A DNA stretch of 64,000 nt from Streptococcus ruminantium. Lineage in GTDB: Bacteria > Bacillota > Bacilli > Lactobacillales > Streptococcaceae. This document shows positions 1 to 12,545 of this stretch, in pieces. Under the pieces are notes generated by a model. The model had not been told where the DNA came from. It ran no database searches and saw only the letters and a list, made by a program, of their open reading frames with translations. Made by a program: the position numbers and the translations under genes. The DNA is taken from assembly GCF_003609975.1 (NCBI RefSeq), contig NZ_AP018400.1, positions 756,501 through 820,500 of the forward strand, written 5' to 3'. Numbering within the stretch: position 1 is the stretch's first letter; each line of letters opens with the position of its first letter.

Positions 1-599
1 TAGATATTCCCCATCTGAGCCTCTACAGCCTGATTTTGGAGAACCACACGGTCTTTATGAACCGTCAGCGCCGCGGCAACCTCCATCTCCCCAATGAAGA
101 TGTGGAGTCAGACATGTTTGACTATATCCTCAAAGAGCTGGAGAAAAATGGCTTTGAGCACTACGAGATTTCCAACTTCACCAAGCCCGGCTTTGAAAGC
201 CGCCATAACCTTATGTATTGGGATAACTCCGAATACTACGGACTGGGTGCAGGAGCTTCAGGCTACATAGACGGTATGCGCTACCGCAATCGTGGTCCCA
301 TCCAGCACTACCTCAGATCCATCCGTGAAAAAAGACATTCTCGCCTGCATGAGGAATTTCTCAGCAAGACCGAGCAGATGGAAGAAGAGATGTTTTTAGG
401 GTTACGGAAAAAAGCTGGCGTATCAATTGAGCGCTTCGAGGAAAAGTTCGGTGTGTCCTTTGAAGCTCGCTACGGTCGAGTCGTCAGAGACTTAAAAAAT
501 GAAGGACTCTTACAAGAAGAAGACCGCTTTATCCGAATGACGAAAAAAGGTCTCTTTCTAGGTGATACCGTTGCCGAGCGTTTCATCTTGGATGAATAG
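1..599 (+). CDS. hemW: HemW-like radical SAM protein, 3' part only
   Basis: The reading frame is open from the left edge (frame of base 3, starting IPHLSLYSLILENHT) to the TAG at 597-599, so only the C-terminal ~198 residues of a protein of about 375 are here. The segment NLMYWDNSEYYGLGAGASGY followed by a wHTH-like HemN C-terminal domain is typical of HemW, the heme chaperone long annotated as oxygen-independent coproporphyrinogen III oxidase. The radical SAM cysteines lie outside the window. No internal start is real; the first in-frame ATG at 36 is mid-domain. The thioesterase gene follows after 119 bases. Confidence 0.88.
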   Translation, partial: DIPHLSLYSLILENHTVFMNRQRRGNLHLPNEDVESDMFDYILKELEKNGFEHYEISNFTKPGFESRHNLMYWDNSEYYGLGAGASGYIDGMRYRNRGPIQHYLRSIREKRHSRLHEEFLSKTEQMEEEMFLGLRKKAGVSIERFEEKFGVSFEARYGRVVRDLKNEGLLQEEDRFIRMTKKGLFLGDTVAERFILDE

Positions 600-718
600 G
601 ATGGTCACCGGTGCCTGATGGGATGTTTAGGCGCAAGACCGGTAGCTACCGTAGATATTTCTATCGAGCGAATCGCAGCGGATAAAATGGTTTAAAATAG
701 TAGAAAGGTTGGAGTGAT

Positions 719-1459
719 ATGGGATTAACCTACCAAGAAGAATGGACCGTCCCTTTTGACATGTGTGATGTCAAGCAGGAGGTCAAGTTGCCTGCCCTCA
801 TTTCCCACTGTCTGGCAGTCTCTGCTCGGCAGTCCGAGGAGCTGGGGCGCAGTGATCTATTTGTTTATCAAGAATACAGGCTCATCTGGGTGGTGACAGA
901 TTACGAATTGACGATTGAGCGCCTTCCCAAGTACAGTGAAACAGTCCTCATTCGGACAGAAGCTGTAGCCTACAACAAGTTTTTCTGCCAACGGACATTT
1001 GTCATCTATGATACGGAGGGCAATCGTCTATTGGATATTCTGTGTTATTTTGTTTTGATTGATTTTGACAGTCGCAAGCTTTCCCCTGTACCAGAAGAGC
1101 TGATTGCTCCGTATCAGTCTGAGCAAGTCAAGAAATTACCTAGAGTTCCCAAGTACCAAGATCTGGAAGAGCCGATTGTTCAGTCGTTTCCTGTCCGCTA
1201 TTTTGATCTGGATATGAATGGCCATGTCAACAACGGTAAGTACCTGGAATGGATGTATGAGGCTCTGGGCTATGATTTTCTGCTCTGCCATTGCCCTCAA
1301 AAAATCCAACTGAGGTATATCAAGGAAGTGGCACCGAAAAGTCAGGTTAGCTCGCTCCTTTCCCAAGTACACCTAACCAGTCAGCACGAGATTGTGGTCG
1401 ACGGTCAGATCCACGCCCAGGCAGTCATTGAGTGGAGGGAGAGCCATACCGCAGGATAG
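719..1459 (+). CDS. acyl-ACP thioesterase
   Basis: This 246-residue protein has two hot-dog folds in the order of the FatA/FatB-type acyl-ACP thioesterase family. It releases fatty acids from acyl carrier protein in the cytoplasm. The second half carries the family signature DMNGHVNN (D165, N167, H169, N171), which holds the catalytic Asp/Asn/His set. An A/G-rich Shine-Dalgarno (agaaaggttggag) stands just before the ATG at 719. In related streptococci hemW, this gene and the HAD phosphatase are neighbours as I recall; here about 5 kb of accessory DNA separates it from the HAD gene at 6665. Confidence 0.85.
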   Translation: MGLTYQEEWTVPFDMCDVKQEVKLPALISHCLAVSARQSEELGRSDLFVYQEYRLIWVVTDYELTIERLPKYSETVLIRTEAVAYNKFFCQRTFVIYDTEGNRLLDILCYFVLIDFDSRKLSPVPEELIAPYQSEQVKKLPRVPKYQDLEEPIVQSFPVRYFDLDMNGHVNNGKYLEWMYEALGYDFLLCHCPQKIQLRYIKEVAPKSQVSSLLSQVHLTSQHEIVVDGQIHAQAVIEWRESHTAG

Positions 1460-1463
1460 ACGG

Positions 1464-1633
1464 TTGGAATGGGCAGTACGTCTGCAAGCTCTGGCACAGA
1501 CGAGTTAGCCTGCGGGAAAGATGTTTACGACATCGAACGTTTCGAGGAAATCCGCAGTATTGCTGCTGAAATGCTGGCAGAGTCTTCAGGTCATCCCTTG
1601 TAAGTGGTCGAGAGTCTCTTTTGCGCAGATGAA
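1464..1633 (+). pseudogene. remnant of NUDIX hydrolase N-terminus
   Basis: Two frames together read LEWAVRLQALAQTS, stop, then CGKDVYDIERFEEIRSIAAE, stop, then VVESLFCADE. This matches the N-terminal helical domain (pfam12535 type) of streptococcal ADP-ribose/NUDIX hydrolases. A TAG at 1506-1508, a frameshift there and a second stop near 1600 break it, and the catalytic NUDIX box is absent. It is therefore a dead 5' fragment, probably left when the accessory segment to its right arrived. A terminator follows directly. Confidence 0.6.
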
Positions 1634-1666
1634 AAGACGATTTCCTTTTAGGAAGCCGTCTTTTTT
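1632..1666 (+). terminator. intrinsic terminator closing the hemW-thioesterase block
   Basis: An A/T-flanked stem (aaaagacg paired with cgtctttt, plus an inner cct/agg) is followed by six T residues. It marks the edge between core DNA and the AT-rich accessory insert. Confidence 0.75.
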
Positions 1667-1908
1667 GATGTTGTCGAAATACGACATATTGTGGTTAGTG
1701 TAAACAGATACATAGTTCCCATAAAAATATTAGTCCGAAATTTTGGGGAAATATCTCAATAGAATAGAGAAGATGTACATGATAAACAATGAAGAAATAT
1801 TGTGATATATCCAAATAGGCATTTTCTAAATAAAAATATAAAAAATTTACATTTTTGTTTAAGAATGATAAAATATATTGCTGCAATAAAAATAGAAAGG
1901 TAGATATT

Positions 1909-2775
1909 ATGGGAACGTTATTGGCTACTAGGATTAAGAGTAGAAGAAAAGAATTGAAATTATCTCAAAAAGAATTAGCAGAAGGAATTTGTAAGCAAGG
2001 TCAAATCAGTCGTTTGGAGAACGGAGAATACACTCCAGGTTCAGAATTATTGCATCAGTTAGCTAAAAAACTTAAAGTGAGTATGGATTATTTTTTTGAT
2101 GAACAGGTTTCAAATGAAAATTCAGAACTTACTGAGTTTAAAAAAATAGCTAAAACATTTATTGCTCAAAGGAATTATGAATCATTGAAATATATCTATG
2201 ATTTAGAGAAAGAAACGTCGCATCGCTTATCATTGTCAGATAAAATATATCTGGAGTGGATTGCATCTTTAGTTGATTTCTATTTCCACGGTAGAAAGAA
2301 GGAGGCGATAGAAAGGTTAGAAAAGTTATTACAGTCACTTGATAAATCAGATATTAACTTTTTGCAAATTTCTAATACCCTTTTTAATTTCTATTACGAT
2401 ACAGAAAACTTAGCTAAATTTGATTTAATAAGGGAAGAGTTAAATGTTCAATTACATCAATTAAATTTAAGTACAATAGAGGAATTGGAATTGTCTATAA
2501 AATTTAACTACAATCTCAGTCGTTACTATTGGTTACAAAAAAATATTGAATTGGCTATCAAACAAGTATCAGCAACTATTAAGCTGTGTCAAGAGTATCG
2601 AACCACATATTTACTAGCGGATTTATTTTTATTATTGGGGAATCTCAGTCAAAATTTTTCAGAAAAAACGACTGCTAAAGGCTACTTTGAGATTGCACAT
2701 TTTTTATATAAGCAAATCGAAGATAATAAAGAGATGGCTCTGACAGTAGAACACTATATTGCAGATAAATTTTAA
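1909..2775 (+). CDS. PlcR/Rgg-like transcriptional regulator (XRE HTH + TPR-like)
   Basis: The 288-residue product has an N-terminal XRE helix-turn-helix (residues about 5-60, with LSQKELAEGI and QISRLENGEYTPG) followed by an all-helical region with repeated aromatic/Leu patterning, as in the TPR domains of PlcR, TprA and Rgg (RRNPP family). Such proteins bind an imported peptide and switch DNA binding. I chose ATG 1909 because aaaggt lies 6-9 bases upstream; an in-frame start at 1855 has no ribosome site. The next gene encodes a small exported-type peptide, as in tprA-phrA and plcR-papR pairs. Base composition is much more AT-rich than the flanking core genes, suggesting acquisition. Confidence 0.8.
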   Translation: MGTLLATRIKSRRKELKLSQKELAEGICKQGQISRLENGEYTPGSELLHQLAKKLKVSMDYFFDEQVSNENSELTEFKKIAKTFIAQRNYESLKYIYDLEKETSHRLSLSDKIYLEWIASLVDFYFHGRKKEAIERLEKLLQSLDKSDINFLQISNTLFNFYYDTENLAKFDLIREELNVQLHQLNLSTIEELELSIKFNYNLSRYYWLQKNIELAIKQVSATIKLCQEYRTTYLLADLFLLLGNLSQNFSEKTTAKGYFEIAHFLYKQIEDNKEMALTVEHYIADKF

Positions 2776-2788
2776 GATTAGACATTGG

Positions 2789-2814
2789 AACGATGTTTAA
2801 AGGCATCGTTTTTT
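2789..2814 (+). terminator. terminator after the PlcR-like regulator
   Basis: A 7-bp stem aacgatg/catcgtt with an 8-base loop is followed by a T-run. It separates the regulator transcript from the peptide-gene promoter. Confidence 0.8.
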
Positions 2815-2827
2815 ATAATACAAAAAG

Positions 2828-2895
2828 CATATATATAAAATATATATAAAAAGATTATAAATTTTATTGACGAATAAATTCCTTGGTGCTAAAAT
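2828..2895 (+). promoter_or_regulatory. peptide-gene promoter with upstream AT palindrome
   Basis: TTGACG (2867-2872) and TAAAAT (2890-2895) are spaced by exactly 17 bases, a near-consensus sigma-A promoter. About 20 bases upstream, 2829-2848 is an almost perfect AT palindrome (atatatata, aa, tatatata), a plausible operator for the adjacent regulator. The operator assignment is an inference. Confidence 0.6.
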
Positions 2896-2925
2896 GAACC
2901 TATAGAAAAAGTAAAAGTAGTTTTT

Positions 2926-3045
2926 ATGAGGAAGGTTTCAAAGAAACTCATCGTTATGTCTTTGTTGGGAGGACTGATTTTATCTATTGGTAAAGGTGAA
3001 GACTTTTTCGACTTAGGTCTAGTGGAAGTTACAGATATAAACTAA
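2926..3045 (+). CDS. putative Phr/PapR-type signalling peptide precursor (39 aa)
   Basis: This short frame starts at ATG 2926 and encodes a basic start (MRKVSKK), a hydrophobic stretch (LIVMSLLGGLILSIG) and an acidic polar tail (KGEDFFDLGLVEVTDIN). This is the layout of RRNPP pheromone precursors, in which the C-terminal 5-10 residues are the signal. It follows the consensus promoter at 2867-2895 and lies 150 bases downstream of a PlcR-like regulator on the same strand. The Shine-Dalgarno is weak (gtaaaag). I do not recognise the mature sequence. It could alternatively be a bacteriocin-like leader, given the ABC exporter downstream. Confidence 0.55.
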   Translation: MRKVSKKLIVMSLLGGLILSIGKGEDFFDLGLVEVTDIN

Positions 3046-3095
3046 TAAACCTAGATAACGATTTTGCAAATTATCAGTATACACCTGCAGTAAAT

Positions 3096-3530
3096 TTGGG
3101 AACATCCTTTGAAAAACTCTTTGCATCCCAGCTGAAAGGAATTGTTCAAAGAGTTGTTCTCTATAATAATGGTGAATATTTTACTGATAGCAATGGAGAA
3201 TATGTAGTTCAGTATTTTGAACTAAACAGAGAATACTATTTTGTAGATTTTAGAACGGCTTCACAATACACTTTGCTTTTAATCAAACTACCTCCAATTC
3301 AAGACGAACTTATAAATTACATTCTATTTATAGGATATTTAGCACAAGAAATCTGCATCAATAATGCAGGTTTGGGACATTATAATCGACCAGTCAAGCA
3401 AGTAAATTTCACCTTTTGTAAAAATGTTTTAGGTGATAAATACAAAGATTATTTGCCGTTCTACGGTGTAATAACAGGCAAAGAAACGATATTAAGTGGA
3501 GAAAGTGAGAATATATATGATGCCGAATAA
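3096..3530 (+). pseudogene. N-terminally truncated ORF, possibly SagB/nitroreductase-like
   Basis: The frame is open from about 3000 but has no ATG; only TTG 3096 lacks an upstream stop, and there is no clear ribosome site. The protein (144 residues from TTG) ends with a stretch containing LGYLAQE-like and YNRPVKQ elements and a YGVITGKE end, which recalls the C-terminal half of SagB/ThcOx-type dehydrogenases. That match is from memory and weak. Its 3' end overlaps the start of the ABC exporter, so they were probably co-transcribed. It looks like the surviving 3' part of a peptide-modification gene. Confidence 0.35.
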
Positions 3531-5121
3531 AAATAAAATAGTTGAGATTCTTTCGAATGATAAGCTTAATTTGTCATTATCAGCTTTTTTAACCTTTATT
3601 GTCTCGGTTGGAGCAGTATATACAGTCTATGCAAGGACAGATATTTTGAATGAGGTGTTGGCTGGAACTGGTCAAGTTTGGTTCAATCTTATTTGGCTTG
3701 TTGTCTGCTTGGTTGTTGTTGAAATATTGAGAGCCATATTGAAAATTGTCAATGCCAAGTTAACTCGAAAGTGGAAATTATATCTGGGAAACAGGATTAG
3801 TAAGAACATTGAGCGGATGCCGTTTGAGAAGTTTTATCAAAAAGAAATAGGCGACCACATGGCAATCTATACCTACCAATTAGAGGTCGTATCCGTCTAC
3901 TTATTGGAGCCGATAACAGGTTTTATTAGTTCTGTAGTCCTATCGGTCATTTCTTTGGTATTCTTAGGTTTGATTAGTTGGAAGTTTGTTGTTTTTGCGT
4001 TGGTTTCAACTGTTCTACTTTTTTCCATAAGTGGAAAGTTTGGGAAAAAAATCAGCGATGGATATGCTGCATTATCCGTTCGCACAGGGGAATTTTCAGA
4101 AAAATTAAAAGAATATTTATCTGCTTATGAGATTTTAAAAAATTTAGGAGTGGTTGATCGGATATCAGAACAAATTGGAAAGAGCCAAGAAGCTAAAGAA
4201 AATCAACAGTTTCTCATAACCAAGTATCTGGCATTTGGCGGACTAACTCTACAAAGTGTTGAAAAACTATTTGAAATGTTAATTTTTGCCTTTACCATAT
4301 TTTTGATTAGTAGAGGAGAGTTGCTGATTGGTGCGATTGTTTCGGTTCCTGCTATGCTAGGGATATTTTTACAAGCCGTCGAACAGTTGGTAGATTTGTA
4401 TATGAAAATTATCGGTACAAAAGATATGCTAGATACTGTGACGGAAATCTCAGAAACGGTGGAAGAGAATTATCCAACGGTAGAGCGATATATTGAGTTT
4501 GAGAATGTTGGTTTCACTTATGGTCCGAAGCAGATTTTCAATCAGTTGAATTTTCGGTTTGATACTGGGAGGAAGTATGCTCTGGTTGGTAAAAGTGGAA
4601 GTGGAAAATCAACCTTGCTCAAGCTATTATTAGGACGTCTTAAGCCGACAGAAGGTCACATTTTGATAGATGAAGAAGTATATTCACCAGAGGTAGATGT
4701 TAACTTTTCAAATCAAATCGGCTACATCAATCAATCCCTCTTCATTTTCTCAGACTCTATTCGTTACAATATTGGTCTTGGACAATCATATACAGATGAG
4801 CAACTTTGGGAAGTACTTGAAAAAGTTAAAATGGCAGATGTGGTGGCTAAATTGCCACAAGGTTTAGATGAAGTGGTAGGTGAATTTGGGGTAGACTTAT
4901 CTGGCGGCGAGCAACAACGGCTTGCAATGGCACGGATTTTAATTCGAAAACACCCGATACTACTACTGGATGAAGCAACGTCTGCGATTGATGTGAAAAC
5001 ATCTAAGGTGATTGAGCAAGAAATATTAAGCAACCCTGACCTAACTGTCATTATGATTACACATCACTTACAAGAGGAAATTAAACCATTCTTGACAGAT
5101 ATTCTAGATCTTGATAACTAA
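3517..5121 (+). CDS. ABC exporter (fused membrane + ATPase domains)
   Basis: The protein (534 residues from ATG 3517) has an N-terminal six-helix membrane domain (residues ~15-310) and a C-terminal nucleotide-binding domain with Walker A GKSGSGKST, signature LSGGEQQRL, Walker B ILLLDEATS and an H-loop MITHH. This is a half-size type I exporter that dimerises, as used for peptides, lantibiotics or lipids. ATG 3517/3520 overlaps the end of the truncated ORF; ggag at 3498 is the only upstream Shine-Dalgarno, and GTG 3496 has none. There is no N-terminal C39 peptidase. Next to the peptide gene, it is most simply a peptide exporter (inference). Confidence 0.8.
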   Translation: MMPNKNKIVEILSNDKLNLSLSAFLTFIVSVGAVYTVYARTDILNEVLAGTGQVWFNLIWLVVCLVVVEILRAILKIVNAKLTRKWKLYLGNRISKNIERMPFEKFYQKEIGDHMAIYTYQLEVVSVYLLEPITGFISSVVLSVISLVFLGLISWKFVVFALVSTVLLFSISGKFGKKISDGYAALSVRTGEFSEKLKEYLSAYEILKNLGVVDRISEQIGKSQEAKENQQFLITKYLAFGGLTLQSVEKLFEMLIFAFTIFLISRGELLIGAIVSVPAMLGIFLQAVEQLVDLYMKIIGTKDMLDTVTEISETVEENYPTVERYIEFENVGFTYGPKQIFNQLNFRFDTGRKYALVGKSGSGKSTLLKLLLGRLKPTEGHILIDEEVYSPEVDVNFSNQIGYINQSLFIFSDSIRYNIGLGQSYTDEQLWEVLEKVKMADVVAKLPQGLDEVVGEFGVDLSGGEQQRLAMARILIRKHPILLLDEATSAIDVKTSKVIEQEILSNPDLTVIMITHHLQEEIKPFLTDILDLDN

Positions 5122-5528
5122 CGACGGTACGGGTATTTGAAAGCAAATAGTGAGATTTTTTCGATGGTAAAATTTTCTATGAGACCATCATTTTTTCCAT
5201 CATTTTTAATACAGATTGACAAATTCGCTATATATCGAATATCTTGTTTCTTCATATGTAAAACACTTCAGTTGAATCCAGTTCGAGAACTTGATTCGAT
5301 TGAGGTTTTTTTTATTTCTTCAATTTTGGAAAGGTACTGCCACAATAATGTTGCTTGAGCAGATGTAGGTTTTCTAGAACAAGGGCGCAATCTTTTCACT
5401 CTAATATTGACGGGAGAAGCCTCGAAATAACCAGTAAGTGAGGAGTAACTATGATAGGTATGCGACCCCCTCCTTATATTATATTTAGTGCGGTTAGCTA
5501 CTGCCCAAGCCCAAGTGATACACTTAAG
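5122..5528. other. non-coding, degraded accessory DNA
   Basis: I see no gene here that can be supported. Both strands hold only short frames with poor composition. The segment lies between the exporter stop and the AbiEii remnant and probably includes the decayed 3' part of that toxin gene. Confidence 0.4.
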
Positions 5529-5983
5529 CAATGATTGGAAATGTATCTTCATTAAAAACAGCTTTGTAGTCATATGTAATCGGCTGTGGAGTCACAATAT
5601 CCCCTCCGTTGCAATATCCAAATGGATAACTTGTTTAATATTCTCAAGTTGACACAAAATCGTTGCACGATAGCCGCCATAGTCATTACTTTCTTTAATA
5701 GCTGTGATAGATTGAATCGTTAAAGAAATACCTTCTCCTAAAACTGCTAAAATTTCTTTAAGTTGCTGTTTAACAGTTTCTTCTGAGGGTGTTATTTGAT
5801 GGAACAAAAAGTCAATATCAACAGTGCTACGGATCCAACTCCGATGACATTTGACAGTAGGAATCCTCCTTTGAAAATATAGTGATTTGAGTATGAACTT
5901 TGACTTAATTTTTTCAAAATCACTTCTAGAAAGTAATAGATTATTACGGAATTAAAGGGTAATCCAGTATTCTTTGCAGAGTA
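5529..5983 (-). pseudogene. AbiEii nucleotidyltransferase toxin remnant
   Basis: Read on the minus strand, three frames join into one protein: AKNTGLPFNSVIIYYFLEVI, IFKGGFLLSNVIGVGS, then after a frameshift STVDIDFLFHQITPSEETVK and later ATGDIVTPQPITYDYKAVF. This is the N-terminal nucleotidyltransferase part of AbiEii/AbiGii toxins (the GG-S...D-D-D pattern of that fold). At least two frameshifts are present and the C-terminal half is missing, so no active toxin is made. It lies directly after an AbiEi antitoxin remnant, in the normal AbiE order. Confidence 0.65.
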
Positions 5984-5989
5984 CTGTCC

Positions 5990-6124
5990 ATTTAGCTTTG
6001 GGTAATCTCTAGGAATTGTTACATCAAAACATTGAGGAATTTCATCTGTAAATTGTTGCAGATACAGTGCTGAGATATAAGAGAAGACAGCCTTGGGATA
6101 ACAGTACTGAAATATGATGGGGAA
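5990..6124 (-). pseudogene. AbiEi antitoxin remnant
   Basis: The minus strand reads YPKAVFSYISALYLQQFTDE followed by IPQCFDVTIPRDYPKL, matching the central part of AbiEi-type antitoxins (type IV toxin-antitoxin regulators), where A-[FY]-S-x-x-[ST]-A-L-Y-L is conserved. The N-terminal winged helix and the C-terminal half are both gone, and the fragment runs in frame into the toxin remnant, indicating an internal deletion. Confidence 0.55.
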
Positions 6125-6143
6125 GAAGTAGCAGTTTGTTACT

Positions 6144-6434
6144 ATGGGAATAGCTGCTGTTGCTTGGAGTAGCACGGTTGCACAAGTTGGTGAAGCGACA
6201 AAGCGACTGGATCATACTATTAGACGGAAGGCCTATCCAGCTACTAATTTGCCTGAGGCTCAACCAGCACTAGTTACGGAACAGACGGACAGTCTTATTC
6301 AGCCAAACACGCAAACTGTACCGCATGATGTGGTGATACAAGTATTAGCTAGAACCTTTATGGCAGTAAATGTTATAGACTACGGACAATGGGATTCAAA
6401 TCAATCATTTATTTTCAAAAAAGTAATGACATAA
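6144..6434 (+). other. 96-codon open frame, doubtful
   Basis: The frame starts at ATG 6144 with only weak purine-rich sequence upstream and shows no domain I recognise (MGIAAVAWSSTVAQVG..., rich in Ala, Thr, Gln). Its start lies just beside the AbiEi remnant on the other strand. It may be a chance frame in decayed DNA or the tail of a broken surface or phage protein. Confidence 0.2.
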
Positions 6435-6473
6435 AGTTATTGTAGTAACTACTTGTTAAATAATAAAAATAAC

Positions 6474-6503
6474 TTGTATATTTTAAGTTCATTGTGGTAT
6501 AAT
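6474..6503 (+). promoter_or_regulatory. extended -10 promoter of a small RNA/leader
   Basis: TATAAT at 6498-6503 is preceded by TG (extended -10), with TTGTAT at 6474-6479 as a weak -35. TTTAAG at 6482-6487 lies ten bases before the -10, the place occupied by the second half of the CiaR direct repeat in csRNA promoters. The first half-repeat is not convincing. Confidence 0.55.
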
Positions 6504-6509
6504 GAGCTT

Positions 6510-6588
6510 AGAGTTCGGTGTCTCACTGCCATTAAAGGTGGAGCATTAACATTAGGAGGGATGTTGCATCTCTCCTTTAATTTTTGAA
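6510..6588 (+). ncRNA. candidate ~80-nt small RNA or attenuator
   Basis: The RNA begins near 6510 and ends at a strong intrinsic terminator: a 10-bp stem 6554-6563/6567-6576 with loop TTG and one G-U pair, followed by a T-rich tail. The 3' arm (catctctcctttaat) is complementary to a Shine-Dalgarno plus start codon (aaaggagagatg), as seen in trans-acting streptococcal csRNAs. It can also pair with attaaagg at 6531-6538, giving an anti-terminator. Either a stand-alone csRNA-like regulator or an attenuator of the HAD gene at 6665 is possible. Confidence 0.5.
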
Positions 6589-6664
6589 AAGTTATTATCA
6601 AAATTGCTTTTTGTCCCAAAAACCTTATCATTTCTGGAACAAAAGGTGACGAAAAGGAGAAAAG

Positions 6665-7438
6665 ATGACCTATCAAGGCTATTTGATTGACTTAGATGGT
6701 ACAATCTACGAAGGAAAGAAACGGATTCCAGCCGGTGAACGGTTTATCCATCGTTTGCAAGAACACCAGATTCCCTATCTGTTTGTGACAAATAATACAA
6801 CGCGCAGACCTGAGACGATTCAGACAATGTTGGCGGAAAATTTTAATATTCAAACCCCTCTTGAAACCATTTATACAGCCAGCTTAGCAACGATTGACTA
6901 CATGAATGATCTGGGCAAGGAAAAAACGGTTTATGTTATCGGGGAAGATGGTCTCAGGTCTGCCATTTTTGAAGCTGGCTATGTAGAAGATACGGAACAC
7001 CCTGCCTATGTCGTTGTTGGACTAGATACCCAGTTGACCTATGAAAAACTCACCATTGCAACTTTAGCTATTCAAAAAGGTGCGACTTTTATCGGTACCA
7101 ATCCAGATCTCAACATTCCAACAGAACGCGGTCACCTACCAGGAGCAGGTTCTTTGATTGCTCTTTTAGAGGCGGCAACTCGTGTTCAACCTACTTTTAT
7201 TGGTAAACCGGAAGCCATTATCATGAACAAGGCGTTGGAAATCCTAGGGACTGAGCGCAGCCAGACCATCATGGTGGGAGATAACTATCTAACTGATATT
7301 CGAGCAGGCATTGATAATGGCTTTCCAACACTTTTAGTGTTGACAGGATTTACCAAATCTGAGGAGGTAGCCAGCTTGCCTATTGCTCCAACTCACATCC
7401 TCAAGAGCTTAGACGAATGGAGTTTTGATGAAAACTAG
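6665..7438 (+). CDS. HAD-IIA phosphatase (NagD-like, TIGR01457)
   Basis: The 257-residue protein carries motif [12 protein letters not shown] (D9, D11), the C2A-type cap typical of NagD-like phosphatases, and motif [14 protein letters not shown]. This family hydrolyses small phosphate esters in the cytoplasm; the substrate is not predictable. The Shine-Dalgarno aaaaggag ends 6 bases before ATG 6665. Its 3' end overlaps the next gene by 11 bases, so the two are co-translated. Confidence 0.88.
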
Positions 7439-8066
7439 GTTGCAAGTTATAGGTACGGCATTATTCATCTTATCAGCAGCCATCTTGGCAACGATTTATC
7501 TAGCTTGGCTTGTCTATCCTTTGGAAATTTCCTTTCTAGGGCTGGAAAAAATCGTCTATATGAAGGCGGCGGATATTGCCTATAATTTTAATATGTTGAT
7601 GAACTATCTAACCAACCCGTTTGTGACCGTTTTGAATTTTCCCAGTTTTTCAGCCTCAGCGGCCGGTCTCAAACATTTTGCGGACGTCAAGCATTTATTT
7701 CACTTGGTGCAGGGGATCTTTGTCATCACTTTGCCAACTTTTATCCTTTTTACAAGGAAGATCGTTCTAAAAGGACATGGAAATCTATTCAGAAATGTTT
7801 TTTTCTTACTGGCTCTAGCTCCAGTTCTTGTTGGTCTGTTGGGCTTATCTATCGGCTTTGATCATTTCTTCACCCTTTTTCACCTTGTCCTCTTTCCAGG
7901 AGATTCGACTTGGCTCTTTGATCCAGCTACGGATCCTGTCATCTACATCCTACCGCAGGAGTTTTTCTTACATTGCTTTCTTACCTTTTTCTTTCTTTAC
8001 GAACTGTTCTTTGGGATAATTCTTACGTGGATAGTCAGAAAGGGCAGAAAAGAAAGTACCTTGTAA
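7428..8066 (+). CDS. TIGR01906 family integral membrane protein
   Basis: The 212-residue protein has an N-terminal hydrophobic segment (about 7-30) and further membrane spans near 100-120, 130-160 and 180-205, the pattern of the streptococcal/lactobacillal TIGR01906 family of unknown function. ATG 7428 was chosen over TTG 7425 because it has tggag at a proper distance. It overlaps the HAD phosphatase gene, a pairing conserved in streptococci, which suggests a shared envelope or metabolite task (inference). Confidence 0.75.
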
Positions 8067-8249
8067 TTTTCAGATGTTGAGATTAGAAAGTGCCTAAGCT
8101 TTCAAAAAATAAGAAGAAACATTATCAGAGCAGGTATCAGAAAATTTTGCTTCAATCTTCTTTTAGTTAGAGCAACACATGGTTTCTTGGGTGATAAGTC
8201 AATTTTGGATTCTCTCCAAAATTTACCACATACCAGAATCAAAAAAAGA

Positions 8250-8278
8250 TTGACAAACGGTCGGAATCATAGTAAAAT
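8250..8278 (+). promoter_or_regulatory. rpsU promoter
   Basis: TTGACA (8250-8255), a 17-base spacer and TAAAAT (8273-8278) form a near-consensus promoter 35 bases before the rpsU start. Confidence 0.85.
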
Positions 8279-8312
8279 GATAGGGACTTTGAAATTGAGG
8301 GGAGTGAAAAAA

Positions 8313-8489
8313 ATGTCAAAAACAGTAGTACGCAAGAACGAATCACTTGATGATGCTCTTCGTCGTTTCAAACGTGCGGTTACTAAAGCTGGTACTCTTC
8401 AAGAAACACGTAAACGTGAGTTCTACGAAAAACCATCTGTAAAGCGCAAACGTAAATCAGAAGCAGCTCGCAAGCGTAAAAAATTCTAA
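8313..8489 (+). CDS. rpsU: ribosomal protein bS21
   Basis: The 58-residue, Lys/Arg-rich protein ([20 protein letters not shown] ... ending [13 protein letters not shown]) is small-subunit protein bS21, which helps translation initiation on the 30S platform. The true start is ATG 8313 behind gaggggag; a longer frame from 8187 crosses the promoter and is not used. It has its own promoter and terminator, hence a monocistronic unit. Confidence 0.97.
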
Positions 8490-8498
8490 TTGAATTTG

Positions 8499-8527
8499 AA
8501 ACAGCTCTGTTTGGGAGCTGTTTTTTT
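8499..8527 (+). terminator. rpsU terminator
   Basis: Stem aacagctc/gagctgtt is followed by a seven-T run, just after the rpsU stop. Confidence 0.9.
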
Positions 8528-8528
8528 G

Positions 8529-8693
8529 TTTACTTTTTACCTTGAGTGACTTATAATAGCTATGTAGAAAAAATCTTTTTTCGAGCAATGCGTTAGGAAC
8601 ATCGAAGGTAATCCTTGGTAAACATCAAAAAATAGATGAGAAAATAGCACCCAAGTTCATCAAATCAAAGTGACATTATAGTTTTGATTTTTG
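8529..8693 (+). promoter_or_regulatory. galE promoter and ~180-nt leader
   Basis: TTTACT (8529-8534), a 17-base spacer and TATAAT (8552-8557) lie immediately after the rpsU terminator. The resulting leader is long; at 8659-8693 caaatcaaa can pair with ttttgattttttg, a weak terminator-like hairpin, which may attenuate galE (inference). Confidence 0.5.
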
Positions 8694-8746
8694 AAGAGGA
8701 TGAAGTGGAGATGATTGATGTTCGAGGGTAGAGAAGGAGTTGTCAA

Positions 8747-9760
8747 ATGAGTATCTTAGTAACAGGTGGGGCAGGCTACATTGGTAGTCACACAGTTGTC
8801 GAATTGTTGAAATTGGGTAAGGAAGTCGTGATTGTTGATAATCTTTCCAACTCAAATATTGTTGTTTTGGATCGTATTGAAGAAATTACTGGCAAGCGCC
8901 CGACCTTCTATCAGCTAGATGTTGCAGATAAGGATGGTCTCCGAACAGTTTTTGAAAAAGAGGCGATTGAATCAGCCATTCATTTTGCAGGCTACAAGGC
9001 AGTCGGTGAGTCTGTTGAAAAACCGATTATGTACTACGAAAATAACATCATGTCAACCCTGTCTCTTGTAGAAGTAATGGCTGAGTTTGGTGTTAAGAAA
9101 ATAGTATTTTCTTCAAGTGCCACCGTTTATGGTCTAAACAACCCATCTCCACTGGTCGAATACATGCCAACGAGTGCTACCAATCCTTACGGATATACCA
9201 AGGTCATGCTAGAGCAGATTCTTCGTGATGTGGAAATTGCAGATAGCAAGTGGAGTGTTGCGCTCCTTCGCTACTTTAATCCAATTGGTGCTCACGAGTC
9301 AGGCTTGATCGGTGAAGATCCTGCGGGTATCCCGAATAACCTTATGCCATTTATTGCACAGGTAGCTGTAGGAAAGCGTGAGCAGCTAAATGTCTTCGGA
9401 AACGATTACGACACAGTGGATGGGACAGGCGTTCGTGACTACATCCATGTCGTTGATCTGGCTTTAGGTCACATCAAAGCCTTAGAAAAAATTTCATCCG
9501 CAACAGGTGTTCACACCTATAATCTAGGTTCGGGTCAAGGTACAAGCGTGCTAGAATTGGTACAGGCATTTGAAAAGGTAAATGGTGTCCCTGTTCCCTA
9601 TAGAATTGTAGACCGTCGCCCGGGTGATGTCGCAACCTGCTACGCAAATGCTGACAAAGCTCTCAGAGAATTGGATTGGAAGACGGAAAAAACGATTGAG
9701 GACATGTGCCGTGACACTTGGAATTGGCAATCAAAAAATCCAAGTGGCTATGAAGGATAA
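8747..9760 (+). CDS. galE: UDP-glucose 4-epimerase
   Basis: The 337-residue protein interconverts UDP-galactose and UDP-glucose (Leloir pathway and polysaccharide precursors). It has the Rossmann motif [10 protein letters not shown] at residues 6-15, the SSSATVYG segment with the catalytic Ser, the active-site YxxxK (YGYTK), and the C-terminal [16 protein letters not shown] segment of bacterial GalE. Length is normal. gagaaggag precedes ATG 8747. It is a single-gene unit with its own promoter and terminator. Confidence 0.96.
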
Positions 9761-9836
9761 GAAAAAGATGCAAGGTGTTTGCTTATACCTGAGCATGTAG
9801 ATTCTTATCAGAGCTAATAAAACGTAAACTATAAAT

Positions 9837-9879
9837 AAAACTCTTAGAAAGGCTATATCAGCCTCTCTAAGAGTTTTTG
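9837..9879 (+). terminator. galE terminator
   Basis: A long stem (actcttaga-aggct paired with agcct-tctaagagt) with a short loop is followed by TTTTTGTTTTT. Confidence 0.85.
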
Positions 9880-9946
9880 TTTTTCAATAATAAAGAAGAA
9901 AGATTGAAGAACTTGCCCCAAGCGAACCTTTTCTTCAATTTGAGAT
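9868..9946 (+). repeat. partial copy of the ~180-bp MITE-like repeat
   Basis: The stretch from gagttttt through tttcaataataaagaa and the hairpin agattgaagaa...ttcttcaat matches the last ~75 bases of the repeat at 10006-10181, with differences in the hairpin loop. It is the 3' end of a second, decayed copy placed in the same orientation. Confidence 0.6.
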
Positions 9947-10005
9947 ATAAGTATCTGCACGCATTTTTTTATTAACGATAAGAAAAACAGGTACAATGCC
10001 TGTTT

Positions 10006-10181
10006 CAGAGCGTAGACAAACCCTATCAACAATAGAATAATTTCAAATTTAGAGATTGACTACTACATAATGAAAATTCCGATAAATACTATCATACTTG
10101 CATTTCTCAGAGTTTTTATTTTTCAACAATAAAGAAAAAAGATTGAAGAATATCTCCAAAATGGACTTTTTCTTCAATCTG
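10006..10181 (+). repeat. ~180-bp MITE-like repeat, copy A
   Basis: This segment is about 90 percent identical by eye, over its whole length, to the reverse complement of 50844-51023. It encodes no protein and ends in a strong hairpin (agattgaagaa...ttcttcaatct). Hairpins built on acaggt/acctgt flank it on both sides (9987-10005 and 10182-10200) and look like two halves or copies of the mscL terminator, so insertion in or next to that terminator is likely. Confidence 0.7.
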
Positions 10182-10206
10182 AACAGGCATTATACCTGTT
10201 TCCATA

Positions 10207-10575
10207 TTATTTGTTTTTCAACAAGTCACGGATTTCTGCAAGAAGTTCTTCTTGAGTTGGACCTGCAGGAGTTTCTTCTTCAACTTTTTTAGGCATTGCT
10301 TTTTCAGCAGCCTTAACGACAAAGAACATTGCAGTACCGATAATCAAGAAGTTGATGATAGCGCTCAAGAAGCTACCGTATTTCACACCATTCCAAGCAA
10401 GATCAGCGATATTTTGAACATTCGCAGCTTCCAAGGCAGGATTTAAAATCAATGGAGTGATAATATCCTCAACAAATGATTTGATAATCGCACCGAATGC
10501 ACCACCGATTACAACAGCTACAGCAAGGTCAACAATGTTCCCACGGAACAAAAATGCTTTCAATTCTTTCAACAT
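10207..10575 (-). CDS. mscL: large-conductance mechanosensitive channel
   Basis: This 122-residue protein opens a large pore under membrane tension to release solutes in hypo-osmotic shock. It has the MscL layout: MLKELKAFLFRGNIVDLAVA at the start, TM1 with AVVIGGAFGAIIKSFVED, TM2 SAIINFLIIGTAMFFVVKA and a C-terminal charged helix LLAEIRDLLKNK. It is encoded alone on the minus strand, between galE and dnaG. Its terminator region seems rebuilt by the adjacent repeat. Confidence 0.96.
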   Translation of the reverse strand: MLKELKAFLFRGNIVDLAVAVVIGGAFGAIIKSFVEDIITPLILNPALEAANVQNIADLAWNGVKYGSFLSAIINFLIIGTAMFFVVKAAEKAMPKKVEEETPAGPTQEELLAEIRDLLKNK

Positions 10576-10659
10576 ATCCTAAATATGTCCTTTCATAAAT
10601 TATTACTCCCTCTATTATAAACATAAAAAAATATTTTACAAGTACTTTGTTTTATAAAT

Positions 10660-10688
10660 TTTACATTTTTCCTCATTTAGTATAAAAT
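10660..10688 (+). promoter_or_regulatory. dnaG-rpoD promoter
   Basis: TTTACA (10660-10665), a 17-base spacer and TAAAAT (10683-10688) lie 66 bases before the dnaG start. Confidence 0.65.
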
Positions 10689-10754
10689 AGAATATGTTAA
10701 ACTAAGGGAAGAGTGTTCATTTTTGAATGAACTCGTATGATATGAGGGGGGGAC

Positions 10755-12545
10755 ATGCTTTCAAAAGATAAGATTACTGAAATAAAGCAAGCTCTCAATA
10801 TCGTTGATGTTATTGGCGAGACTGTTACTCTGACCAAAGCTGGCCGTAACTATATCGGTCTTTGTCCTTTTCATGGAGAAAAAACACCTTCGTTTAATGT
10901 GATTGAGGATAAGCAGTTTTACCACTGTTTTGGATGTGGGAAATCTGGTGATGTCTTCAAGTTTGTAGAGGAAACCAATGGGGTTTCTTTTGTGGATGCA
11001 GCGGCTATCCTGGCCGAAAAAGCTGGTCTTCAGTTGGACATTACGCCTTCCCATCGTCAGGAAGAAAAACAGATGAGTCCTCATCAAATTCTTTACGATA
11101 TTCATCGGGATGCGGCAAAATTTTATCATGCTCTTTTGATGACAACCAAGATGGGAGAAGCAGCCAGAACTTATTTGCACCAACGAGGGCTGAACGATGA
11201 GGTTATCAAGGCTTTCCAACTAGGCTTGGCACCTGCTGAGCAAACTATTCTCTATCAAAAACTGTCACGTCAGTATGATGAGGAGAGCTTGTTGAACTCT
11301 GGTTTGTTCAATCCTGGTGAAAATAATATTATCTACGACGCTTTTCAAGCTAGAATTATTTTCCCCTTGACGGACGAATATGGTCGAATCGTAGCCTTTT
11401 CGGGTCGGATTTGGACGGAGATTGACCGAAACAATAAGCAACTGGCCAAGTACAAAAATTCACGTAGCACAGCTATTTTTAATAAGAGTTACGAATTATA
11501 TCATTTGGACAGGGCTAAAGCGGTCATAAAAAAGCAACGGGAAGTCTACCTGATGGAGGGCTTTTTGGATGTTATTGCAGCCCACCGCGCCGGTATTGAT
11601 AATGCGGTTGCCTCTATGGGGACAGCTCTTACCAGAGAGCATGTCGGACATCTAGCTAAGTTTTGCAAGAAAATTGTCCTGACATACGACGGGGACAAGG
11701 CTGGACAAGCGGCAACGCTGAAAGCATTGGATGAGTTGCAAGATTTTCAGGTGGAGATTGTTAGTCTTCCAGACAATATGGATCCAGATGAGTTTCTGCA
11801 AAAAAACTCAGAAGAGGCTTTGCAACAGGTTCTAACCAAGTCACGCATCAGTGATGTTGAATTTTTGATTCAATATTGGAAGCCTGAAAATCCTGATAAT
11901 CTGCAAATGCAAATTGAGTTTGTGGATAAAATTGCCCCTATCATTGCTAAAGTTTCATCCATCACCGCCCAAAATTCTTATATTTATAAAATAGCAGATT
12001 TGCTTTCGGATTTTGATTATGGTCAGGTGGAGCAAGCTGTTAATGCTATCCGCTTGAACCAGCGGCAGCAACGAACTCAGCAGGTGTATCACGATCAGGC
12101 TAGTCAGCCTTATCTGCCTCCCATTCAGGCGGTTACACGAGTTACTCGTCTCATTCGGACAGAGAATCACTTGCTCTCTCGAATGGTAGAACATCCCTAT
12201 ATTTTAAATGAATTTCGTTTAAGGGAAGATTTTTATTTTGCAACGCCAGAATTGCAGCTTCTGTACGATATTTTGAAAAGGCAAGGGGAAGTTACTAGCT
12301 TTGACTTGTCTCAACTGGATGATTCTGTTCAACAAGCTTGGTATCGAATGCAAGAAGAACGTTTGCCGCAAGAAGTGGCATCGAATGAGATGGAAGAATT
12401 AGAATTCCGACGAGATCGGGAACTGTTGAAAAAGGAGAATCAACAGTTAGCACGGAAAATCCGTGAGCATTCCCACGTGGGAAATGCAGATATTGCCCTC
12501 GATGAGTTACAAAAACTCCTCGATAGAAGAAGACAAATGGAGTAA
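10755..12545 (+). CDS. dnaG: DNA primase
   Basis: The 596-residue protein makes RNA primers at the replication fork. It has the CHC2 zinc finger (C37, H40, C58, C61 in [11 protein letters not shown] ... [12 protein letters not shown]), the primase core, the Toprim acidic motifs ([21 protein letters not shown]) and a C-terminal helicase-binding region. A G-rich ribosome site (gagggggg) precedes ATG 10755. rpoD starts 2 bases after its stop, the conserved macromolecular-synthesis operon of streptococci. Confidence 0.97.

Follow-up and report, generated by a model that had tools for sequence, protein, structure and literature searches.

The locus considered here lies within 1909-5121 of a 64,000-nucleotide stretch of Streptococcus ruminantium DNA (the window; it spans 756501-820500 in genome G000, which consists of one contig of 2,090,539 bases), whose named relatives are streptococci, and it comprises a regulator gene, an AT-palindrome region, a 39-codon open reading frame (ORF) holding the stub of a peptide gene, the remnant of a second gene and an ABC exporter gene. 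In the 39-codon ORF, the start of a pheromone gene of a known streptococcal type has most likely been fused, out of frame, with the second half of an unrelated gene. The locus as a whole is best explained as a broken member of the PapR/TprA-like (RRNPP) pheromone-regulator family, standing before the ruins of a LanB and YcaO cluster for a ribosomally synthesized and post-translationally modified peptide (RiPP) of the thiopeptide/azole type, a reading to which we give a probability of about 0.88. A previous sequence-only reading had proposed a new peptide-signalling and export cassette at this place. The regulator-pheromone plan that it recognised fits, 24 codons being shared with the phr-type family; the claim of a new signalling system is not supported, since the "new" peptide tail is the downstream truncated gene read out of frame. 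The features of the locus are as follows.

1909-2775, plus strand: intact regulator of 288 amino acids, predicted PlcR/TprA-like (RRNPP) from Pfam HTH_3, a PlcR profile match, orthologues and substitution rates
2789-2814, plus strand: terminator-like hairpin of the regulator gene, AACGATG-N8-CATCGTT-TTTT, found by eye
about 2829-2848, no strand: AT palindrome from the first reading, not conserved and possibly due to chance
2867-2895, plus strand: promoter TTGACG-17-TAAAAT with TG-extended -10, from a scan and the comparison of relatives
2911-2925, plus strand: degraded Shine-Dalgarno site of the peptide ORF, from duplex energy
2926-2998, plus strand: first 24 codons of a precursor gene for an IDPGPAN-type pheromone, left as a 5' stub, from its match to phr-type genes of relatives
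2998-3000, no strand: recombination or deletion junction, where two homologies meet
2998-3045, plus strand: out-of-frame tail of the 39-codon ORF, EDFFDLGLVEVTDIN plus stop, overlapping the other-frame remnant
3000-3530, plus strand: 3' remnant (about 160 residues match) of a gene that two intact clusters carry between ycaO and their ABC gene, from protein matches
3517-5121, plus strand: full-length ABC exporter of 533-534 amino acids with a Shine-Dalgarno site of about -6.4 kcal/mol, from Pfam and comparison

The junction inside the 39-codon reading frame

The ORF at 2926-3045 reads MRKVSKKLIVMSLLGGLILSIGKG-EDFFDLGLVEVTDIN and has a signal-like N-terminus. Its codons 1-24 match phr-type genes of relatives, but codons 25-39 do not. 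The break in homology was called from DNA similarity to relatives and from matches of the frame-0 translation. Coming from the left, DNA similarity to relatives with intact pheromone genes breaks off: with loci L036 and L037 it covers 1910-2998, and the matches to four further genomes of this kind (G170, G011, G261 and G115) also end at 2998; the match to G053 ends at 3001. In another frame than the peptide ORF, the sequence beyond this point encodes RLFRLRSSGSYRYKLINL..., and when the frame-0 query was extended back to 2925 (with the stop written as X), the protein match to G268 (locus L071) started at base 3000; that to G197 (locus L070) starts at 3006. Because the two homologies meet within a few bases, the junction is placed at 2998-3000.

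The 39-codon exported-peptide gene of the sequence-only reading therefore exists as an ORF but not as an intact gene, since codons 25-39 are unmatched and the Shine-Dalgarno site is degraded (its duplex energy is -1.5 kcal/mol, while the 12 relative loci tested, some of which are near-identical, range from -5.9 to -9.0). Where an RRNPP system has an adjacent exported propeptide with a cognate C-terminal signal, the window has a 24-codon stub without IDPGPAN. The string LVEVTDIN of the tail was not found in the literature searched. The tail was considered as a thiopeptide leader as well, DLGLVEV recalling LGLEVLE of the L071 precursor, and this was rejected: the frame-0 homology, LRSSG versus LRTSG in L070 and L071, explains the same bases.

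The frame at 3000-3530 had been taken for a truncated possible modification gene, and it is indeed what is left of a cluster gene that precedes an exporter. It has no convincing start (a TTG at 3096 lacks a Shine-Dalgarno site), and its translation aligns with the C-terminal portion of a protein from G197 (40%, E 4e-28) and of one from G268 (37%, E 4e-26), the matched open frames having 374 and 355 residues. The full-length homologues, of 363 amino acids in L070 and 351 in L071, lie between a YcaO gene with a SagD-family domain and an ABC gene; neither Pfam nor NCBIfam has a family that matches them (E up to 0.1), and the L070 protein gave no solved structure match. From position only, one could guess at a SagB-like dehydrogenase. 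Relatives of the remnant were found in 4 of 284 genus genomes, its own included (G165 by 29 residues only), and in 4 of 395 genomes of the order-level set, again with its own; the single addition there, G514, matches over just 35 residues. A mobile origin of the remnant was discarded, tblastn against the plasmid and phage collections having given no match.

L070 (about 2205-11077) and L071 (1656-10556) appear as thiopeptide-like RiPP clusters in two Streptococcus genomes. Upstream of the YcaO gene both carry a LanB gene with a thiopep_ocin domain, which in L071 scores below the model's curated cut-off, and precursor-like small ORFs are present at 1656-1793 of L071, reading MEKDDLQNELKSLGLEVLEISTDTMLEEFGASRGGNGCCSVIIAT, and at about 2205 of L070 (by eye). 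Their ABC genes directly follow the homologue and are 39-40% identical to that of the window. Precursor, dehydratase, YcaO and exporter thus occur together in L070 and L071 and do not at the window locus. Upstream of the cluster, at 208-411 of L070, an open frame ending in LDVGKAD, the heptamer of pneumococcal PhrA type, was also seen, with an apparent transposase gene (by eye) in between.

Regulator, pheromone family and exporter

The regulator, already called PlcR/Rgg-like from the sequence alone, is predicted to be a PlcR/TprA-like RRNPP protein: it contains an HTH_3 domain (Pfam E 8e-15), and a profile of 22 sequences matches the PlcR structure 2qfc over residues 4-271 (E 1e-21), consistent with the helix-turn-helix and C-terminal TPR-type domain of the PlcR family. 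Orthologues were searched for in 197 genus genomes, its own included; nine other genomes hold one at 76-83% identity and fifteen further ones are found at 64-70%, the G089 copy having an internal stop. Pairwise omega (the ratio of dN, nonsynonymous, to dS, synonymous divergence) was 0.07-0.12 in six comparisons, the seventh being saturated and dS being about 1 or more in several, and these values lie inside the range of 0.06-0.18 found among the other orthologues. The dN to L093 is 0.108, against 0.140 between L036 and L093, and it is also below that of L037. The regulator and the exporter give no sign of decay, although such rates mostly predate the break. For the paralogues L002-L005 in the same genome no clear neighbouring peptide was found under the filter used; one 24-codon ORF follows L005.

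The signals behind the regulator gene were judged in an alignment of 11 rows (the window and ten others). The arms of the hairpin at 2789-2814 are recognisable in 10 of the 11, being broken in L041, which agrees with the terminator noticed earlier, though a simple scan did not list it. An AT palindrome beside a consensus promoter had also been described; the promoter stands, since it can be made out in most of the other ten (not in L041, and L040 diverges before the -10), while the palindrome was rejected as an operator because it is not conserved among the aligned relatives. An Rfam scan of window positions 1-9000 gave no match. In L018, L019, L021 and other mitis-group loci, which lack the pheromone gene, a different ORF (MNELEVRFELNDERDYNNAISYLEKSYKF..., read by eye) stands behind the conserved promoter.

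For the peptide counts, the 24 genomes other than its own with an orthologue of at least 60% identity were used. After the regulator, 11 of the 24 carry an exported-looking peptide of 44-49 codons with IDPGPAN 2-4 residues from its end, beginning within about 350 nt of the regulator gene (500 nt were searched); a twelfth, G173, holds the pattern on another contig. The remaining 12 are without it, from which it follows that loss or replacement of the pheromone is common among the regulator genomes. All 12 pattern holders of the regulator-searched set fall among these 24, and the other 172 genomes, its own excepted, have none. Across 284 genus genomes, searched with control columns, the pattern occurs in 18 and the control columns are zero; the window genome has neither the pattern nor a related looser one. 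Genomes that keep the regulator thus have the first part with an IDPGPAN-type end, or no peptide; none of this conserves the unfamiliar tail, and non-conservation of the 39-codon frame where the regulator is kept is an outcome that the sequence-only reading itself had named as refuting it. The IDPGPAN family is already known: precursors of the PapR/TprA-like type in S. thermophilus end in IDPGPANIMVK and IDPGPAHSMVS, and the C-terminal peptide of the former was detected in the supernatant of strain JIM8232, according to PMC12445099, the only source in the literature searched that has the string DPGPAN.

The pair loci compared were L036, L037, L093, L094, L098, L099 and L101-L104. The IDPGPAN pairs precede ThiF cassettes in L036, L037 and L101, and a class I LanB cassette in L103 and, by weak LanB similarity only, in L098; L099 has a class III RamC/LanC-type synthetase, with peptide and synthetase on one contig and the regulator on another. 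The others had no family match, the cassette scan covering ten proteins of which 4 were without an informative family. A tiny ORF, MIVEEKETRESTRRTVL, lies at 7231-7284 of L037 between the pheromone gene and the ThiF gene, and might, from its resemblance, be a short precursor of a microcin C-like product.

As first proposed, the last gene of the locus encodes an ABC exporter, with ABC_membrane and ABC_tran in one chain (Pfam E 5e-14 and 1.5e-31). Genome G165 keeps window positions 3441-5252 at 93% DNA identity with the same right-hand flank (by eye, from a HAD-like gene onwards); of the truncated gene only the last 28 codons are left there, followed by the ABC gene, whose codon 376 is a stop. 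The window gene is open, with an omega of 0.14 against G165 (dS 0.18), and an open relative in G192 (79.5%, 531 amino acids) stands beside an MFS-transporter-like gene (by eye). Farther on, at 5592-6175 on the minus strand, fragments resembling an AbiEii-type nucleotidyltransferase are split between two frames (E 8e-4 and 0.03 in weak Pfam matches below cut-off); this may be a further gene remnant of the region.

Origin of the locus and alternative explanations

Under the preferred explanation, the ancestral regulator would have responded to an IDPGPAN-type C-terminal peptide taken back into the cell, and the promoter at 2867-2895 would have been under its control. By deletion or recombination, pheromone codon 24 would have become fused to a mid-gene position in the gene that separates ycaO from the ABC gene in intact clusters, with loss of the pheromone core and perhaps of 6.8 kb of precursor and modification genes, this being about the distance from the precursor to the junction-equivalent point in both L070 and L071. 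With the fusion out of frame, translation would stop 15 codons on, giving a tail without signal history, and receptor, promoter and ABC exporter would remain. We infer in this way the size and content of the loss, and also that the strain makes no signal of its own, that the exporter is still driven from the promoter at 2867-2895 and that it is an immunity or efflux pump.

Several points weigh against this explanation. No genome searched was seen to have the window regulator type, IDPGPAN and the LanB/YcaO cluster together (the best regulator match of G197 is weak, E 2e-4), so the ancestral order is deduced and the ancestral arrangement was not observed; a single simple deletion and a join between separate cassettes are equally possible. 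Constraint on the regulator and the exporter is not relaxed, and "ruin" may be too strong a word for these two. One genome of the species was examined. Finally, the heptamer FDLGLVE in the tail, 5 residues from its end (2-4 in relatives), scores 21 (BLOSUM62) against VDLGLAD of PhrA2, more than about 99.9% of other tails, which we regard as a weak coincidence in a post hoc test with a chance of about 0.1% per tail, the same string also recalling the thiopeptide leader.

The same score speaks for the reading in which the 39-codon gene encodes an intact precursor of a new kind of pheromone, which works with the regulator and either leaves the cell through the ABC exporter or controls it: of 3053 other open tails in the window, just 2 reach 21, and the signal-like N-terminus, promoter and terminator are real. 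We nevertheless hold this to be very improbable. Codons 25-39 overlap codons of another frame that are homologous to a different protein, and the Shine-Dalgarno site is degraded. True family heptamers score 34-42 against themselves, far above FDLGLVE, and among 12744 tails of 18 loci 25 reach at least 21, of which 11 are pheromone tails scoring 35-40; the other 14 (of 12733 non-pheromone tails) are not. That the out-of-frame join gave the old leader a new xDxGx heptamer, FDLGLVE, and in a single step moved the receptor onto another signal channel would be a long shot of the same order. Hardly credible is a programmed frameshift that would turn the peptide ORF and the frame after it into a single fused protein: the two do overlap at 3000-3045, but elsewhere each half belongs to a gene of its own, and the join falls within both of these genes; a frameshift signal was not sought.

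A sharper form of the preferred explanation, not exclusive of it, is a doubtful though more serious possibility, in which the own signal was lost and selection keeps receptor, promoter and exporter, the strain hearing the IDPGPAN peptides of its neighbours and switching on the exporter as protection. The regulator dN to L093, which is not raised, the omega of the ABC gene, its full length in the window and G192, and the presence of IDPGPAN carriers in 18 of 284 genus genomes are consistent with it. However, rates between species mostly record the time preceding the break, the G165 copy of the ABC gene has a stop codon, and the protective role of the exporter is putative.

Comparison with known systems

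The explanation as a broken pheromone locus removes a false new pheromone and shows that a deletion can mimic a novel signalling peptide; among receptors that are left without their signal, the window regulator is a clear case. The nearest published counterpart is the system Sthermo_1 of S. thermophilus JIM8232, where a PlcR-family regulator also has a neighbouring peptide gene; the precursor given in Table 2 of PMC12445099 begins MRKFLKKLIVISLLGGLILAIGKG, with 20 of 24 residues as in the window stub (by eye). There the IDPGPAN end is in place and yields a detected peptide, whereas in the window the end is lost.

The pair PlcR-PapR of Bacillus cereus is likened to the window locus through the 2qfc profile match of the regulator. 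The peptides are not known to be alike. PlcR controls a virulence regulon (PMC12445099).

In S. pneumoniae, TprA/PhrA and TprA2/PhrA2 combine a regulator, an exported peptide with an active C-terminal heptamer and a lanthipeptide-type cassette; the heptamers, LDVGKAD and VDLGLAD, share the pattern xDxGx with IDPGPAN (PMC5436883). The pneumococcal pairs are intact, whereas the window locus has lost its heptamer and what remains of its cassette belongs to the LanB/YcaO type. With respect to thiopeptide/azole clusters (a LanB with thiopep_ocin and a SagD-family YcaO), where in L070 and L071 the counterpart of the truncated gene and the ABC gene adjoin at the cluster end, the window retains only that end. 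Our comparison thus finds the receptor-pheromone pair before ThiF, class I LanB and class III RamC/LanC cassettes, and leads to the thiopeptide-like clusters of streptococci; the window cassette would be the LanB/YcaO version behind an IDPGPAN-type pair, now in ruins.

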